Shown here: positions 5,258 to 30,527 of the stretch, piece by piece | Layout of the letters: each line of letters opens with the position of its first letter | How positions within the stretch are numbered: the first letter of the stretch is position 1 | DNA from: Bacteroidaceae bacterium | GTDB lineage: Bacteria > Bacteroidota > Bacteroidia > Bacteroidales > Bacteroidaceae | Assembly (NCBI GenBank): GCA_024401225.1 | Contig: JAKSLM010000031.1 | Location: 1-34,457 of the forward strand | Direction: 5' to 3' | DNA: 34,457 nucleotides | Position numbers and translations under genes: made by a program | Notes under the pieces: generated by a model | Told to the model about the DNA's origin: nothing | Seen by the model: the letters and a program-made list of their open reading frames with translations, nothing else | Databases searched by the model: none

Positions 5258-6430
5258 ATGAAGTTGGAACCAGACAAGGGAATACCCCGCCACATCATCC
5301 TGTTGATGTCAGCCATGGCAGGTCTTACCGTTGCAAACCTATATTATGTCCAGCCACTACTGGAGATGATTCGTACCGACCTCGGCACGACCGATTCCCT
5401 GGCTAATATAATAGCGGTGGTGACACAGGTGGGCTATGCATTAGGATTGCTGCTCATTGTGCCAACCGGCGATCTGTTCTCACGCCGGAAGATTATCGTG
5501 GTGTGCATGACTCTGGCATCGCTTCTGACCTTCACGATAGGACTTTCGAGCAATGTATACACCATCTGGGCAGCATCGCTCGCTATGGGAGCATGTTCGA
5601 TAGTGCCTCAGTTGTTCATCCCCGTAGCAGGACAGTTCTCAAGACCCGAGAACAAGTCGCGAAACATGGGGTTCGTGCTCTCCGGTCTGCTCATTGGCAT
5701 CCTTGCAGCGCGTGTGATAAGCGGCATGATAGGCGAGTGGATGGGATGGAGAATGATGTACTACATCGCTGGATGCATCATGATTGTGTGCCTTGCCCTT
5801 ACACTATGGACGATGCCTCAGATGCAAACGAATTATTCCGGCAACTATGCAGGTCTGATGCGGAGCGTAGGGCGCATCTTCCTCGATCATCCCAAAATAA
5901 GGATTAATGCTCTGCGTGCAGCCTTCGGATTTGGTAGCACCCTGAGTTTTTGGGCTTGCCTGGCGTTCCACCTGGCTGGCGATCCATTCCATGCGGGTAG
6001 CGATGCCGTTGGCTATCTTGGACTCTGCGGCGTGGCAAGTGCGATGGTAGCGAGCGGCATAGGAAAATACATTCCCCGTTATGGTACAAGGCGATTTTGC
6101 ATCGTTGGATCGATATGCCAGATCGTGGCATGGATCGTGGCATACGCTTTCGGCTATACCTATCTGGGACTGATCATCTCCCTCATACTGGTCGATTCGG
6201 GCCTCCAATGCTTGCAGCTCAGCAATCAGAGCGCATGCATCCAGGAGGTGCCGCAAGCCGCCAACAGAGTTAACACTATCTTCATGACAACCTACTTCAT
6301 AGGTGGAAGTATGGGAACGTTCTGTGCTGGCCAGGGATGGCACATAGCTGGATGGACCGGTATATGCGTCATTGGCCTTCTTTTTGCCACCACAAGTTTG
6401 GCCATCACTATCGCAAAGCGCGAAGAATAG
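5258..6430 (+). CDS. MFS transporter, drug/sugar-exporter type (DHA1/AraJ-YnfM-like)
   Basis: 390 aa from the ATG at 5258, the first start after the promoter. The protein is almost entirely hydrophobic helices (12 expected). The N-terminus GIPRHIILLMSAMAGLTVANLYY is typical of this subgroup. MFS motif A appears as GDLFSRRK in the loop between helices 2 and 3. The family exports drugs or metabolites across the inner membrane by proton antiport; the substrate is unknown. First of four same-strand genes with gaps of 26, 20 and 28 bases, hence probably an operon with SDR, GH97 and BASS carrier. Confidence 0.88.
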   Translation: MKLEPDKGIPRHIILLMSAMAGLTVANLYYVQPLLEMIRTDLGTTDSLANIIAVVTQVGYALGLLLIVPTGDLFSRRKIIVVCMTLASLLTFTIGLSSNVYTIWAASLAMGACSIVPQLFIPVAGQFSRPENKSRNMGFVLSGLLIGILAARVISGMIGEWMGWRMMYYIAGCIMIVCLALTLWTMPQMQTNYSGNYAGLMRSVGRIFLDHPKIRINALRAAFGFGSTLSFWACLAFHLAGDPFHAGSDAVGYLGLCGVASAMVASGIGKYIPRYGTRRFCIVGSICQIVAWIVAYAFGYTYLGLIISLILVDSGLQCLQLSNQSACIQEVPQAANRVNTIFMTTYFIGGSMGTFCAGQGWHIAGWTGICVIGLLFATTSLAITIAKREE

Positions 6431-20271: not shown

Positions 20272-22368
20272 TCATGGCATCGGCAAAATGCCTTCATAGC
20301 GCACATCCCATTTCCCATCCTTCGGGAATCCTGGCAGAGGTGTGGTGCATCCATCCCATCCGGCACACATGAGGGCCACGGCGGTGAGAAGTCCTCCATT
20401 GCCTGGCAGGTAGCAGCGCAGGCGGCCGTCCTGATAGTTGTGTCCATTAGGCAGGTAGGTGTTGGTGCGCTTTGGCATAAGGAGGGCATCGATGGCAAGC
20501 TCCGGCTCGAGGAGTCGGGTGGCATTCATGCATGTGGTAGGGTAATCCCATCCCCAAGTCTTGTCCCAGTTCCAGTGGTTCATGACCCATTGCAGCGTGG
20601 CACGCATGGTTTCGGTATCTATCTGAGGCGAACGAGGCAGGACGCCTAACGCGGCAAGCACGGCCATGTGGTCGCTGTAGAGGGCGAGGTCGGGCTTGTG
20701 GATTGGCGAGTTGTAGCTTTCAGCTGTCTCGGCAGCAGCATATACCCCATCCTTGGCAGAGAGAGGGGAAAGGCGATCGATTATCTTGTCCCATGAGGCA
20801 TTGCGTGGCTTGCCGGCACGGATGCGCCACTCCTGTGCGAGTTGTAACCCAAAATGCCAGTAGGAGAGTTCGAATGGTGGATTGATGGTTTCGGCAGCTT
20901 TCAAGGTTTCCTGTGCAGGGATGCATCCACGGAGTGTATAGCGATCGTTGGCTGCATCGTAGGTGGCAAAGGATGCCATGAATTGGGCACTTTGCTCCAC
21001 GAGGTCGGCATAGCTGCTGATGATGCTCTCGTCGTGTGTGGCACGGTAGGCGAGTTCGCATAAATATATAAGATGTGGCTGCTGCCAGATGAGAAACGAA
21101 CCGACATTGGATGGAGCTTCCCCAGCCGATGGGTCGGTCATCTTCATCCACCGTATGCCCTCCATGCCCTGGCGCTCAGCTATCTGTCGTGCCATAGGTG
21201 CCGCCTTGTGGTACCACGGTAGGGTGCGTAGCAGGAGCTCGGGATGGCTCCAGAGAGCAAATTGTGCCTGATGCCACCATGTCATCTCGAGGTGAAACTT
21301 GCCAAACCATGAGTTGTAGGTGAGGCCCGTCTCCTGTGGTGGTGTAGTGCCGGCACACTGGATGGCAAGCAGATACTGGGAGAGCACTATGCGGCGTTCG
21401 AGTTCGGCAGCTCGCGGATCGGTACAGCGGCTCATGTCGACCATGCCTCCTGTGAGCCAGTAGCGATGCCAATAGTCCGTGGTAGCGGACAGGGATTGCT
21501 TGGCGCTTGGGATGGGGTGAGTAGGTACGGACGGCGTGAATTCCACTTCAAGGACCCACTTGTCGCTCACAGGATTGATGCTGACTCTATTGCCCCGAAT
21601 GGACGGGCGACTGGCACCTTGCCATGAGAGGCGTATGCAGTAGCTCTGACCGTCGAGTACATGGCGGATGATGATGCAGTTCGATGACGAACTGACCTCT
21701 TCAAGATGGTGCGAGAGGCCCTCCGACCAGTCGCATGCATCGTCGCTATGCTTGCCTGTAGGATAGGGGAAGAGTAGGGACACGGGGTGGCGTGAGGGAT
21801 CGCTGATCTGAGCCACTACAAGATCCCTTTCTGGATGGCACGAGGTGACGACTCGCATCGGGTGTCCATCGCATCGGTATGATGAAGTGATGATTCCGTC
21901 AAATAGTTTAAGTTGCTGATCTATGTCAGTTATATCATCTGCTTCAATGCCATCGAAGGCAATGATGCCGAGGTGGAGACGGTGAGGATTGCAGCGCAGA
22001 TAGTCGCTCGCATCCTTCTCCCTTCCTGTCTTGAACTGGCACGAGTACCACTCCTCATTGCCTCGCCCGAAGTCGAAGCTGCGAAGGGCGTCGCTGGCGG
22101 TGAACCCCTCCGTGTTAGGGAACGAATGCCACCCCCATTGCGCCATGGTGCCGAGTGGCACTCCGTTGCGATACTGTTGGTGGAATGTCTGCAAGCCCGT
22201 CACGTCGCAGGTGAAGGCAAACTCTCCGTTGCCCACTGACAGGGAAGCGAGGGTGTCGATTGAGTTGATGTGAGGATTGTTGCGCTCCAGAAGGGCGCGG
22301 CGGTCGATCTTTGCATGAGCGGCATACACCGACGAAGCAAGAAGTAAGAGTAGTACGAGATGTCTCAT
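20272..22368 (-). CDS. secreted (alpha/alpha)6-type glycoside hydrolase (six-hairpin glycosidase-like)
   Basis: 698 aa from the ATG at 22366-22368, which begins a signal peptide (MRHLVLLLLLASSVYAAHA). An in-frame ATG at 22386 overlaps the -7 element and so cannot be in the transcript. N-terminal beta-sandwich (about 40-285) opening with LASLSVGNGEFAF, as in GH65/GH95-type enzymes, then a helical barrel with NSWFGKFHLEMTWWHQAQF (353-371; Glu361 is a candidate catalytic residue), a Trp-rich stretch NHWNWDKTWGWDYP, and an ending with GNGGLLTAVALMCAGW. The family number and substrate are not certain; clan-like fold assignment is from these motifs. It is divergent from the SGNH esterase at 22500. 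Confidence 0.75.
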   Translation of the reverse strand: MRHLVLLLLLASSVYAAHAKIDRRALLERNNPHINSIDTLASLSVGNGEFAFTCDVTGLQTFHQQYRNGVPLGTMAQWGWHSFPNTEGFTASDALRSFDFGRGNEEWYSCQFKTGREKDASDYLRCNPHRLHLGIIAFDGIEADDITDIDQQLKLFDGIITSSYRCDGHPMRVVTSCHPERDLVVAQISDPSRHPVSLLFPYPTGKHSDDACDWSEGLSHHLEEVSSSSNCIIIRHVLDGQSYCIRLSWQGASRPSIRGNRVSINPVSDKWVLEVEFTPSVPTHPIPSAKQSLSATTDYWHRYWLTGGMVDMSRCTDPRAAELERRIVLSQYLLAIQCAGTTPPQETGLTYNSWFGKFHLEMTWWHQAQFALWSHPELLLRTLPWYHKAAPMARQIAERQGMEGIRWMKMTDPSAGEAPSNVGSFLIWQQPHLIYLCELAYRATHDESIISSYADLVEQSAQFMASFATYDAANDRYTLRGCIPAQETLKAAETINPPFELSYWHFGLQLAQEWRIRAGKPRNASWDKIIDRLSPLSAKDGVYAAAETAESYNSPIHKPDLALYSDHMAVLAALGVLPRSPQIDTETMRATLQWVMNHWNWDKTWGWDYPTTCMNATRLLEPELAIDALLMPKRTNTYLPNGHNYQDGRLRCYLPGNGGLLTAVALMCAGWDGCTTPLPGFPKDGKWDVRYEGILPMP

Positions 22369-22385
22369 TATGATGATTTTGTGCA

Positions 22386-22393
22386 CAAAGATA
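22386..22393 (-). promoter_or_regulatory. -7 element for the six-hairpin glycosidase
   Basis: TATCTTTG on the minus strand, exact match. The predicted start is near 22380, leaving a leader of only about 12 bases to the ATG at 22368. The -33 part is weak. Confidence 0.55.
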
Positions 22394-25619: not shown

Positions 25620-25910
25620 TTACTTGCTGATTTCGGCAGCAAACATCTGATCGAGTTCTTGCTGTGGGAACGGACATGGTTCTTGACGTACCTTGGCGAG
25701 CTGGAACTGATGGCAGGCATTGAGTACCGACTGGGCCTCAAAGCATTTGAAAAGCATGTCCTTCAGTTGGTCAAGACGCTGCACATCGGCATCGGTGAAG
25801 CGACCGTACGTTCCGTAGCTCACATTCCGGTCGGGTGTGATGCCATGATAGTAGTACGACCATACGAGGAAGCGCATGCATACGTCGGGAGTCATTAATA
25901 TCTCTTGCAT
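25620..25910 (-). CDS. 96-aa conserved-looking hypothetical protein
   Basis: 96 aa with no signal peptide or membrane helix: MQEILMTPDVCMRFLVW, an aromatic stretch (SYYYHG, SYGTYGRF), then a predicted helix DADVQRLDQLKDMLFKCF and a Gln/Glu-rich end. Cys residues at 11, 56, 66 and 79 are spread without a metal-site pattern. It starts 42 bases after the GH3 stop on the same strand, so it is probably the last gene of that operon, closed by the terminator at 25481. I do not recognise the family. The sequence has ordinary codon use and amphipathic helices, which support a real gene. Confidence 0.6.
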   Translation of the reverse strand: MQEILMTPDVCMRFLVWSYYYHGITPDRNVSYGTYGRFTDADVQRLDQLKDMLFKCFEAQSVLNACHQFQLAKVRQEPCPFPQQELDQMFAAEISK

Positions 25911-25952: not shown

Positions 25953-28262
25953 TTACTTGCTTGCATTGAGCGGACGGCTTGGCTTCAAGACGTCGTGGCA
26001 CTTCACGCTCTGAGCCTTTGCCTGCTTGTAATTGGCTGTTGTTTTGATGTCTTCAACGTTGGTTGCGAAACGAACGGAGTAGTTGCCCTGTGCTGTTTCC
26101 CATGCCTGAGTTGTCTCGTTGTAGGATGCGAGATCGTAGGCAGAAACGTGCATGGTGAGGGTTTCGCTCTCGCCTGGCTTCAGGTTCTTTGTCTTGGCAA
26201 ATGCCTTGAGCTCGTTGGCTGGCTTCTCCATACCACCTGAAGGTGCTGACACGTAGAGCTGGATGACTTCCTTGCCGGCAACCTTGCCTGTGTTCTTGAC
26301 AGTGATGCGAGCTTCAAATCCGTCCTTCACAGCCTTAACCGATGCGTTGCTATAGGCAAACTGAGTGTAGCTGAGACCGTAGCCGAATGGGTACGATACA
26401 GGTACGTTGGCTGTGTTGAAGTAGCGGTAACCTACGTTGATGCCTTCCTCGTGGAGAGTGTAGTCGGTGTTGCGCTTCTGTCCGCGGCGGCCACCAGTAT
26501 CCATGCCTACGTGAGGGTAGTTGAGGAGTGCTGGCACATCCATCGCTGCGAGAGGGAATGTCATTGAGAGGCGTCCTGATGGGTTCTCCTTGCCGAGAAG
26601 CACGTCAACTACCGAGTTGCCGCCTTCCTGACCTGGCTGCCATGCCATGAGGATGGCATCAGGCAGATCCTTCCATGAGGCTGTCTCGATGACGCCACCC
26701 ATGTTGAGAACTACGATGACGCGCTTGCCCTGCTGATGGAATGCCTGGCAGACATCCTGAAGCAACTGGCGCTCTGTAGCTGTGATGTTGAAGTCGTCGT
26801 CGATGTAGCGGTCGTCGCCTTCACCTGCCTGACGGCCGAGAGTGATGAGTGCCACATCGGCTTTGGCTGCCTGCTTTGCGATGGCGCGATAGTTGAGGTC
26901 CATCTCAGGAAGTTTCTTTGTGCCCCAGAACCATTCAGATGGATCCTTTTCAGCATCCATACGTGCGCGCATGTACATTTTATAATTTGAATACACGTTC
27001 GAGAGGTCCTCTGTCACCTTCATGCCTGCATTCTTGATGCCCTGCATGAGGTCGACTGTGTATGCCTTGTTTACATCGCCCGATCCTGTACCACCGGCAA
27101 TGAAGTCGTAAGATGTAACGCCGAAGAGGGCGATAGTCATGTCAGCCGAGAGTGGGAGAGCGGTAGTGGAACCGTTGAGGTTGGATGCTGAGCGGAGGTA
27201 GTTGTTCTTCAACAGTACCATACCCTCGGTAGCACTCTGGCGAGTGATGGCAGCATGAGCCTTGAGGTCAGGAGTGTTGTTGAACTTGTACTGACGGAAG
27301 TGTGGAGTCTTCACGATGTACTCAAGTGTGCGGCGTACACAGAGGTCGAGAGCCTCCATGCTGAGCTTGCCTTCCTGCACCTTGCTTACGATGTCCTTCA
27401 CCTGGTTTGGTTCGCCTGGTTCCATCATGTCGTTTCCGGCCATGATCTGCTGAGCTGTGTTGCGCAGACCTGTCCAGTCGGTCATTACCACACCCTTGAA
27501 GCCCCATTCGTCACGAAGGATGGTGGTGAGAAGTTCGCCGTTCTCCTGAGTGTAAGGGCCGTTAAGCTTATTGTACGATGACATTACTGTCCAAGGCTGT
27601 GACTTGCGCACGCAGATCTCAAATCCCTTAAGGTAGACCTCACGGAGCGCACGCTGGCTGATGACCTCATCGACCTCGAGACGGTTGACCTCCTGGCTGT
27701 TGCCGGCAAAGTGCTTGATGCTTGTACCTACGCCCTGGCTCTGAACGCCGTTGACATAAGCTGCTGCAATGTAACCGGTGAGGAATGGATCCTCGCTATA
27801 GTACTCGAAGTTGCGTCCGCAGAGAGGGGAACGATGGAGGTTCATACCTGGAGCGAGCAGAACGTCGCATCCGTATTCAAGAACCTCGTTACCGATGGCT
27901 TCACCCACGCGAGTCACGAGGTCGGTGTTCCAAGTACATGCCAAGGCTGTACCTACTGGGAAACCTGTAGCATAGTAAGTGTGCGAATCGTTAGGACGGG
28001 TAGGGCTGATGCGCACTCCCGCAGGACCGTCGGTAAGAACTGTAGGAGGGATGCCCAGACGATCGATAGCCGACGTAGAGCCTGCAGCTCCGCGTACTAT
28101 CTCTGCATGGGCGCCAATAAGTCCGTTCGAACTGTTGGCTGCGCTGTTGTTGCTGCGTCCTACGAGCAGACGAGCCTTTTCCTCTACGGTCATCGACTTG
28201 ATGACCTCATCGATATTGTCTGACTGAAGTTTCACCTGTGCCATGATTGACGACGTAGCCAT
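25953..28262 (-). CDS. GH3 beta-glycosidase (beta-glucosidase/xylosidase-like), signal peptide disrupted
   Basis: 769 aa from the first in-frame ATG (28260-28262). TIM barrel at about 15-340 with DGPAGVR, KHFAGNSQE and the nucleophile Asp262 in VVMTDWTG; GH3_C domain at about 365-600 (ALITLGRQAGEGDD, then GGVIETASWKDLPDAILMAW); fibronectin-III-like domain at the C-terminus (YPFGYGLSYTQF). It hydrolyses beta-glucosides or beta-xylosides. The start is abnormal: the reading frame upstream encodes NYTAAAALLMATSSIMAQ, a typical signal-peptide core, but no start codon precedes it in frame. The ATG that overlaps the stop of the alcohol dehydrogenase gene (28301-28303) is one base out of frame. One extra A in the AA at 28288-28289 would restore a complete signal. 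As read, the enzyme would stay in the cytoplasm, or this is a sequence error. Confidence 0.9.
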   Translation of the reverse strand: MATSSIMAQVKLQSDNIDEVIKSMTVEEKARLLVGRSNNSAANSSNGLIGAHAEIVRGAAGSTSAIDRLGIPPTVLTDGPAGVRISPTRPNDSHTYYATGFPVGTALACTWNTDLVTRVGEAIGNEVLEYGCDVLLAPGMNLHRSPLCGRNFEYYSEDPFLTGYIAAAYVNGVQSQGVGTSIKHFAGNSQEVNRLEVDEVISQRALREVYLKGFEICVRKSQPWTVMSSYNKLNGPYTQENGELLTTILRDEWGFKGVVMTDWTGLRNTAQQIMAGNDMMEPGEPNQVKDIVSKVQEGKLSMEALDLCVRRTLEYIVKTPHFRQYKFNNTPDLKAHAAITRQSATEGMVLLKNNYLRSASNLNGSTTALPLSADMTIALFGVTSYDFIAGGTGSGDVNKAYTVDLMQGIKNAGMKVTEDLSNVYSNYKMYMRARMDAEKDPSEWFWGTKKLPEMDLNYRAIAKQAAKADVALITLGRQAGEGDDRYIDDDFNITATERQLLQDVCQAFHQQGKRVIVVLNMGGVIETASWKDLPDAILMAWQPGQEGGNSVVDVLLGKENPSGRLSMTFPLAAMDVPALLNYPHVGMDTGGRRGQKRNTDYTLHEEGINVGYRYFNTANVPVSYPFGYGLSYTQFAYSNASVKAVKDGFEARITVKNTGKVAGKEVIQLYVSAPSGGMEKPANELKAFAKTKNLKPGESETLTMHVSAYDLASYNETTQAWETAQGNYSVRFATNVEDIKTTANYKQAKAQSVKCHDVLKPSRPLNASK

Positions 28263-28299
28263 CAGCAATGCTGCTGCGGCTGTATAATTCGTTGTTTGC

Positions 28300-29487
28300 T
28301 CATCTTGCCATCTTGTAAATGTTAATCATATCTGCCATCTTGAGCACCTTAAGTCCGCCGATGGTCTGAGTATCGCCTGTGCTACACTTGTCGGCCATGT
28401 CCTCAATCTCAGCATCGCTGATCTCCTTACCGATAAGGTCATGGATGTTGGTTGGCATTCCGATAGAACGGAAGAATGCTTCCATGGCCTGAATACCTGC
28501 CTCAGCAGCTTCGAGGTCGGTCATGCCTGTAGTGTCGCATCCCATCACGTTGCGAGCGAAACGTGCGAAACGTGGCATGTTCTCCTCGCGAGTGTAGCGT
28601 GCCCAACTGCCCCAAACGGCTGCAAGGCCTGCGCCGTGGCTTACGTCGAACATACCCGAGAGTTCGTGCTCAAGGCAATGAGTAGCCCAGTCGCCTGAAG
28701 TACCGCAACCAGTGAGGTCGTTGTGAGCCAGCGAACCTGCCCACATGATCTGAGCGCGGCTTGCATAGTCGGTTGGATTCTCAAGCACCTTGTGGCCCTC
28801 GCTCATACAAGTGCGAAGCAGAGCCTCTGCAATGGCATCTGTGATCTCCATGTCATCGTCCTTGCTGAAGTAGCGTTCCATGGTGTGCATCATCATGTCG
28901 GTGATACCACATGCTGTCTGCCAAGCAGGGAGAGTATAAGTGAGGACAGGGTTCATGATGGCGAACTTGCAACGGAACTCGTTGACGCAATAGTCCTTCT
29001 TGAGCCATCCGTCCACCTCATCGTTAGTGATGACCGAACCGTCGCTCATCTCCGAACCTGCAGCAGGAATGGTGAGTACGCAACCGATTGGTAGGTACTT
29101 TGTTGCATGAGTCTTGTGGAGATAAAGGTCCCAAACGTCGCCCTCAAAGAAGCGACCTGATGAAATGGCTTTTGAAGAGTCGATGACCGAACCGCCACCT
29201 ACTGCGAGGATGAAGTCTACACCCTCAGCCTTGCACACTTCGATGCCCTGGCGCACGAGCGAAAGACGTGGGTTTGGCTTTACGCCGCCCAGCTTAACGT
29301 ACTCGATGCCCTCTGCCTGGAGGCTCTTCTCAACGGTGTCGAGCAATCCCGACTTGATGGCGCTCTGACCTCCGAAGTGGAGAAGCACCTTTGTGCCTCC
29401 GTATTTCTTTACGAGTTGTCCGACCTGACCCTCTGTGTCACGCCCGAATACCACCTGCGTAGGTGCATAGTAATTGAAGTTTTTCAT
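28300..29487 (-). CDS. iron-dependent alcohol dehydrogenase, YqhD/BDH-like
   Basis: 395 aa. NAD(P)H-linked reduction of aldehydes, cytoplasmic. The dinucleotide site is AVGGGSVIDSSKAI (95-108). The metal ligands Asp197, His201 (ITDMMMHTMERYF), His270 and His284 (CLEHELSGMFDVSHGAGL) match those of E. coli YqhD (194, 198, 267, 281) with a constant shift of three, and the whole length agrees. This subgroup prefers NADPH and acts on short or toxic aldehydes. It lies between an oxidoreductase gene (68 bases upstream) and GH3, whose natural ATG appears to overlap this gene's TGA stop. Confidence 0.95.
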   Translation of the reverse strand: MKNFNYYAPTQVVFGRDTEGQVGQLVKKYGGTKVLLHFGGQSAIKSGLLDTVEKSLQAEGIEYVKLGGVKPNPRLSLVRQGIEVCKAEGVDFILAVGGGSVIDSSKAISSGRFFEGDVWDLYLHKTHATKYLPIGCVLTIPAAGSEMSDGSVITNDEVDGWLKKDYCVNEFRCKFAIMNPVLTYTLPAWQTACGITDMMMHTMERYFSKDDDMEITDAIAEALLRTCMSEGHKVLENPTDYASRAQIMWAGSLAHNDLTGCGTSGDWATHCLEHELSGMFDVSHGAGLAAVWGSWARYTREENMPRFARFARNVMGCDTTGMTDLEAAEAGIQAMEAFFRSIGMPTNIHDLIGKEISDAEIEDMADKCSTGDTQTIGGLKVLKMADMINIYKMAR

Positions 29488-29555: not shown

Positions 29556-30527
29556 TTAATCCATAGGATACTTCACGCCCCATTCCTTGCGCATGTCGTC
29601 CATCTGCTGCATGATGCTGATGGTCTCTTCGTGAGGCATCATAGGCGATTCGAGCAGTCCTTCGTCCATGCAACGTTTGCACTCCATGACCTGATACTCG
29701 TAGCCAGTCACCATGTCGGCAGGGCGTTCGATACGCTCCACCAGTTCGTAGTTACGATACACCTCAATGAGTTCTGGGCAGTTGATGTTGTCCACGCGGA
29801 TGTAACCCTCAGTACCGCTGATGATGCCCTGGCGATCGTTAAGGCAAAGGGCACCCGACTGCAGATTGGCCATGCGACCATTGGCATAGGTGAGCGACAT
29901 GCTTTCCTGCATATCCATGCCTGTAGGACCGAGGATGCAGTTTGTGACAGTCTTCACGATGTCGGTTCCGAAGTACATTCGGGCAAAATTGAGCGAATAG
30001 ACGCCGAGGTCGAGCAGGGCACCTCCGCATAGTTCAGGACGAACGATGCGTTCCTTGTTCTCCATCATGTAGCAAAGGGTAGCCGTGAGCACGCGTGGCT
30101 CACCGATGATGCCGCTGTCCATGAGTTCCTTGACCTTGTGCGATAGAGGCATGTAGCGAGTCCAAATGGCCTCTGTGATGAATACGCCCTTCTGCTTAGC
30201 AGCTTCAAGCACTTCCTTTGCCTGGCGCACATTGGCTGTGAATGCTTTCTCCACCAATACTGGCTTGCCGGCATTGATAGCGAGCAAAGCATGATCGTAG
30301 TGGTGAGAGTGTGGGGTAGCGATGTACACGAGATCTATGTCAGCATCCTGCACAAGTTCTTCATAGCTACCATAAGCCTTCTGGATTCCATATTGGCTGG
30401 CAAATGCCTGAGCCTTTTCGAGCGAACGTGATGCAATGGCAAGCACCTGATAGTCGCTGAGAGGAGCGAGAGAAATGGCCATCTTGTCAGCAATCCATCC
30501 TGCTCCGATAATTCCTACGTTAAACAT
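29556..30527 (-). CDS. Gfo/Idh/MocA-family oxidoreductase
   Basis: 323 aa. The Rossmann motif VGIIGAGWIA (4-13) binds NAD(P); the conserved EKP motif reads Glu93-Lys94-Ala95 (LVEKAFTAN), with Ala instead of Pro as in dihydrodiol/xylose dehydrogenase-like members. The second domain starts near EPRVLTATLCY and contains GGALLDLGVYSLNF, whose Asp is the usual proton-relay position. Such enzymes oxidise or reduce sugars such as D-xylose or trans-dihydrodiols in the cytoplasm. With alcohol dehydrogenase and GH3 downstream, a role in processing released sugars is plausible but not shown. A 12-copy 8-bp repeat (30549-30644) sits just upstream; no TAnnTTTG element was found there. Confidence 0.92.
   Translation of the reverse strand: MFNVGIIGAGWIADKMAISLAPLSDYQVLAIASRSLEKAQAFASQYGIQKAYGSYEELVQDADIDLVYIATPHSHHYDHALLAINAGKPVLVEKAFTANVRQAKEVLEAAKQKGVFITEAIWTRYMPLSHKVKELMDSGIIGEPRVLTATLCYMMENKERIVRPELCGGALLDLGVYSLNFARMYFGTDIVKTVTNCILGPTGMDMQESMSLTYANGRMANLQSGALCLNDRQGIISGTEGYIRVDNINCPELIEVYRNYELVERIERPADMVTGYEYQVMECKRCMDEGLLESPMMPHEETISIMQQMDDMRKEWGVKYPMD

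Follow-up and report, generated by a model that had tools for sequence, protein, structure and literature searches.

The part of an earlier study of termination-reinitiation considered here describes strict translational coupling in 13 of 14 tested gene pairs with ATGA or TGATG overlaps, in Haloferax volcanii and E. coli, and reports that a Shine-Dalgarno motif is seldom present at such overlaps in Bacteroidetes (PMC6728339). In the stretch of Bacteroidaceae DNA analyzed here (34,457 nucleotides in all, hereafter the window), both motifs described in that part of the study, ATGA and TGATG, occur in series. In contrast to the systems described there, however, the middle unit in the window is an accidental 13-codon ORF, and the arrangement is known from sequence alone. 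The gene behind these overlaps encodes a protein that shares its domain order and a near full-length alignment with GH3 beta-glucosidases of known structure, the nearest solved relatives being 8idz and 2x40. Its leader-bearing orthologs from Bacteroidales begin with signal-like leaders, whereas the leader in the window is out of frame with the probable start. Frameshifted alleles and indel errors are ordinary in draft genomes, and the window gene resembles them in having a single break in an otherwise intact gene. It differs from ordinary frameshifted alleles in having its break close enough to the start for the body still to be translatable from a start further downstream.

The host assembly is a draft of 3,000,086 bases in 105 contigs and is 84% complete. 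On the minus strand of the window, a Gfo/Idh/MocA-family oxidoreductase gene is followed by an iron-containing alcohol dehydrogenase gene and then by the GH3 gene, with the coordinates given in Table 1. The GH3 protein contains both the N-terminal and the C-terminal domains of its family (PF00933, E 4.8e-37; PF01915, E 1.4e-41; PF14310, E 7.8e-20), and 8idz is its best solved relative with an E value of 4.1e-242. By these domains, the protein is a member of glycoside hydrolase family 3, with a predicted hydrolase activity. Many of its closest named relatives come from Prevotella, Bacteroidaceae or Bacteroidales assemblies, several of them of ruminant gut origin; at the level of search results, we noticed no precedent for the window gene in the literature. 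Two other minus-strand ORFs in the window, one of 96 codons immediately downstream of the GH3 gene (25620-25910) and one of 704 codons (20272-22386), have no Pfam match at E 0.001.

Table 1. Features of the dehydrogenase/GH3 junction and of its flanking genes (window coordinates)
Feature	Position	Strand	Basis
Gfo/Idh/MocA-family oxidoreductase, co-directed, upstream of dehydrogenase	29556..30527	-	Pfam PF01408
Iron-containing alcohol dehydrogenase; TGA stop overlaps ATG at 28303	28300..29487	-	Pfam PF00465 + PF25137; sequence
ATGA stop/start overlap, probable native GH3 start	28300..28303	-	sequence; same -4 overlap in 10/30 related dehydrogenase loci
13-codon mini-ORF arising from frame break, TGA end at 28264-28262	28262..28303	-	sequence
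Interval one base out of step with GH3 frame	28288..28300	-	ATG versus GH3 frame, compared with orthologs
Signal-peptide core, GH3 frame; no in-frame ATG/GTG/TTG precedes first nine codons	28239..28289	-	sequence; aligned to 28 ortholog leaders
TGATG, mini-ORF stop overlapping first in-frame GH3 ATG (28262); TTG at 28268-28266	28260..28264	-	sequence
GH3 beta-glucosidase-type enzyme, no interruption from TTG on	25953..28268	-	Pfam PF00933, PF01915, PF14310

We read the junction directly on the minus strand. In the GH3 frame, positions 28289-28281 encode NYT, positions 28280-28239 encode AAAALLMATSSIMA and positions 28238-28236 encode Q, and this signal core has no start codon before it, as the initial annotation had claimed. 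Ahead of the TTG at 28268, this frame has 19 further open codons, back to position 28325. According to the ORF list, that TTG is the first ATG, GTG or TTG of the GH3 ORF, and it is located inside the signal core. The first in-frame ATG follows at 28262 and overlaps the stop of the mini-ORF as TGATG; the position of the TTG within the core and the TGATG overlap are two details absent from the initial annotation. The ATG of the upstream ATGA had been described as running out of frame to an early stop, and we indeed find a TGA after 13 codons. Sec-dependent export calls for a start in frame with an n-region, a hydrophobic core and a cleavage site. The core and the AQ site are present at this locus, but no such start is found, because no in-frame ATG, GTG or TTG precedes the core and the TTG at 28268 lies within it. 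The sequence shifts by one base between the ATGA and the signal core, and the exact base cannot be placed. The addition of one A at 28288-28289, proposed in the initial annotation as the change that joins the two frames, is arithmetically correct; the site itself is not unique, as any position from 28300 to 28288 could hold the break.

We compared the window gene with its orthologs among the fetched GH3 loci. The set comprises 50 rows with at least 54% identity over at least 600 aligned residues, window copies and repeated stretches being excluded, and signal-like leaders were judged by a simple hydrophobicity and charge rule rather than by a trained predictor. Two rows have no start, L025 being truncated by a contig end and L182 (genome G163) being broken within the gene. 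In 45 of the 48 assessable rows, the protein begins at an ATG and has a leader made of an n-region of net positive charge and a hydrophobic core ahead of a conserved AQ. Three rows deviate: L005 has a good leader read from a GTG, and the starts chosen for L093 and L160 have no positive charge. At 62% identity or more, 28 of 29 rows conform, and the 29th, L182, is broken elsewhere in the gene and not assessable for its leader. The initial assignment of a signal peptide to this GH3 gene family is supported, with the reservation that the 28 conforming orthologs have 26 distinct first-30 sequences and so are not all independent. The distance from start to Q is 19-22 codons in 26 of these 28 orthologs (20-22 codons in 24 of the 26), and the window ATGA is found at the matching position. 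The n-region that an ATGA start would imply differs from the MKK usual in the relatives. Five other GH3 genes examined in the host genome all have signal or lipoprotein-like leaders.

A control set drawn from 276,402 bases (146 ORFs of at least 200 residues, 45 of them coding and with at least 12 open codons upstream) was used to assess whether the open stretch ahead of the GH3 gene is unusual in composition. This stretch ranks second of 45 in hydrophobicity. By codon score, the 12 codons ahead of the TTG do not stand out and are not among the best 12 listed of the 45. Composition alone weakly supports more than chance, and the argument for a genuine leader is carried by homology.

The dehydrogenase provides a second line of evidence on the start. 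Such a dehydrogenase is present in 40 of 45 genomes of the genus, the host included, and we inspected 30 loci of the 39 others. A -4 ATGA overlap marks the beginning of the next gene in 10 of the 30. Nine of the 10 products begin with signal-like leaders, and the tenth is a Gfo/Idh-like protein. Among the nine, eight are of one kind, with 384-385 residues, and one (L138) is a GH9 enzyme; Pfam identifies the L137 product, the only one of the eight tested, as an esterase with a CBM48 domain. The arrangement of dehydrogenase, ATGA and secreted carbohydrate enzyme is thus recurrent in the genus. The dehydrogenases that share the overlap are 62-65% identical to that of the window in nine cases and 73% identical in one, and the three nearest ones (85% in G033, 83% in G030 and 79% in G061) end in TAA, with no overlapping next gene. 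The ATGA is a plausible native start as first suggested, though the overlap is absent in the three nearest loci, and we consider that the ATGA at 28303-28300 is probably the start of the GH3 gene. An ATG at such a distance in the wrong frame could also be due to chance. What looked like a change of frame in the G061 dehydrogenase turned out to be a masked stretch and was dropped. Separately, an alcohol dehydrogenase and a secreted esterase-type protein sharing an ATGA form a conserved pair in L135, L136, L137, L140, L141, L143, L146 and L148.

The window GH3 family was not found directly beside the dehydrogenase in the fetched loci of the 30 related dehydrogenases or in the GH3 loci. The nearest cases in these loci are a homolog of 38% identity located 2.2 kb upstream (L006) and a GH3 remnant (L157). 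The junction has no base-by-base comparison because no fetched relative pairs the dehydrogenase with this GH3 family, and a search for the junction in viral contigs, a collection unlikely to contain it, gave 0 matches. The missing adjacency would be expected if a rearrangement or a chimeric contig had fused the end of the dehydrogenase to a GH3 gene truncated within its leader. We regard such a fusion as quite improbable, as the leader length measured from the ATGA matches that of the orthologs and relatives show the same overlap with other secreted enzymes.

We built a profile from the 28 ortholog N-termini and used it to score alternative starts in the window. The in-frame core scores 62.6 bits, two ATGA-started versions score 63.3 and 64.4 bits, and starts at 28268, 28262 and 28244 score 58.1, 56.6 and 53.1 bits, respectively. 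A leader started at an ACG (28292) scores 62.5 bits, and the upper scores differ too little to choose a break site or to exclude another start. It is thus conceivable, if unlikely, that the GH3 gene natively uses a non-standard start in its own frame, such as this ACG, or that its start codon was lost by substitution, with the ATGA being there by chance. No stop interrupts the GH3 frame as far back as 28325, and the ACG-started leader is nearly equal to the ATGA-started ones in the profile, but such a leader would lack the positive n-region present in the 28 assessable closest orthologs, and the ATGA arrangement is found repeatedly at the downstream end of related dehydrogenases.

The best explanation, to which we assign a probability of about 0.8, is a native ATGA start followed by an ordinary Sec-type signal peptide, with a simple start-proximal indel rather than a programmed device separating the two. 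The event is ordinary in kind, whether it is a recent real mutation or a sequence error. The initial annotation had also suggested phase-variable or frameshift-dependent expression. Programmed frameshifting or phase variation governing export would fit the frame relation itself, which is the one point in its favor, but our reading of the junction does not agree with it. No phase-variation tract is present between 28303 and 28262, where the longest run is AAA, and a change in length of the GCA triplet repeat would stay in frame, so that we found no repeat tract of the frame-changing kind that marks a phase-variable gene. Programmed -1 frameshifting would use a slippery X-XXY-YYZ heptamer in the zero frame, and reading by eye from 28303 to 28262 revealed none in the ATG frame. 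The leaders are moreover continuous in the 28 orthologs. Regulation of this kind is highly improbable.

Two accounts of a simple indel differ in whether the organism itself carries it. In one, the population has lost secretion by mutation, and the GH3 enzyme would be cytoplasmic and made by reinitiation at the TGATG (28262) or at the TTG (28268). In the other, the break is a consensus or assembly error, and the organism would have an intact leader and export the enzyme. Over 276,402 bases, an ab initio frame-jump model made 14 calls, of which 11 lie outside the window and 3 within it (6427, 7285 and 28304). The calls at 6427 and 7285 are normal gene overlaps. Outside the window, 8 of the 11 calls resemble ordinary gene junctions, an ATG being present at the upstream stop or close to it. 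Since ordinary junctions of this kind are marked too, the model's call at 28304 carries little weight. Three outside calls have no such ATG; we read L198:14454 as probably two separate proteins, and L188:3865 and L200:3465 involve short fragments. We found no clear internal frame break in the 241,945 bases sampled outside the window, 3 of the 11 model calls there being not fully resolved. When one-base losses were simulated inside genes, the model detected 55 of 60, a test that addresses breaks beyond the first codons of a gene. From this sample, indels do not seem to be frequent in the assembly, and a low indel density bounds errors and real breaks alike.

These controls bear on both accounts. 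An error would be in keeping with the draft state of the genome (105 contigs, 84% complete) and with a GH3 gene that is otherwise open and of full length; against it stand the sample with no clear internal break, the recovery of 55 of 60 simulated losses and a break site that is not a long homopolymer. Real frameshifted genes are common in bacteria. Short-read consensus indels are rare outside homopolymers, which counts here if the host genome was read by such a method. Because of these two generalities, we lean slightly toward a real mutation. The scarcity of indels elsewhere in the sample fits a real loss of secretion, as do the disrupted copies of this GH3 family in G030, G003 and G163, which are themselves draft genomes. 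The TGATG overlap, a known coupling motif in the part of the termination-reinitiation study considered here (PMC6728339), would provide a restart site. Of 295 columns that do not vary among the 28 orthologs, the window gene differs at 13, which is the highest share jointly with L004 (13 of 308); the other 27 differ at 0-8. This count is confounded, as the window gene and L004 are isolated branches and many others have near-identical sisters, and it does not demonstrate relaxed selection. Relaxed selection was not used as an argument either way, since branch isolation explains the count equally well. A real loss of secretion further rests on one sequence of the species. On balance, we put a recent real mutation in the sequenced population at roughly even odds, somewhat likelier than a consensus error, which we regard as a tenable but lesser possibility.

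If the sequence is correct, ribosomes would finish the dehydrogenase, restart at the ATGA and translate a 13-codon peptide, after which a further restart may follow, either at the TGATG that overlaps the stop of this mini-ORF (28262) or at the TTG (28268). Both overlaps are of the coupling type (28303-28300 and 28264-28260), and coupling itself is predicted. The product would be a GH3 enzyme with no working signal, and we infer a cytoplasmic location because neither the n-region nor most of the core would be part of a protein started at 28262 or 28268. It is a long shot that the lineage has fixed this relay of ATGA, 13-codon mini-ORF and TGATG, such that a GH3 beta-glucosidase once exported would now be cytoplasmic and act on imported oligosaccharides. 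If the break is real, this locus illustrates cleanly how a single indel close to the start could switch the compartment of an enzyme, its body remaining translatable via overlapping stop and start codons. If it is an error, it cautions that signal-peptide prediction in draft genomes hinges on single bases near the start. Neither outcome alters general understanding.

The window GH3 family seems to be decaying in places. Remnants of this family with a large inner part missing are found in two genomes of the genus. The remnant at L157 (G030:C19, 11391-12064) covers query residues 99-278 and then 714-768, with a changed frame, and lies near a contig end; the one at L163 (G003:C89, 5797-6267) covers residues 194-286 and then 696-767. 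The ortholog at L182 (G163:C61, 1064-3218), in which a break within the gene puts residues 2-100 and residues 140-767 into different frames, is a nearby example of a frameshifted allele or of an indel error.
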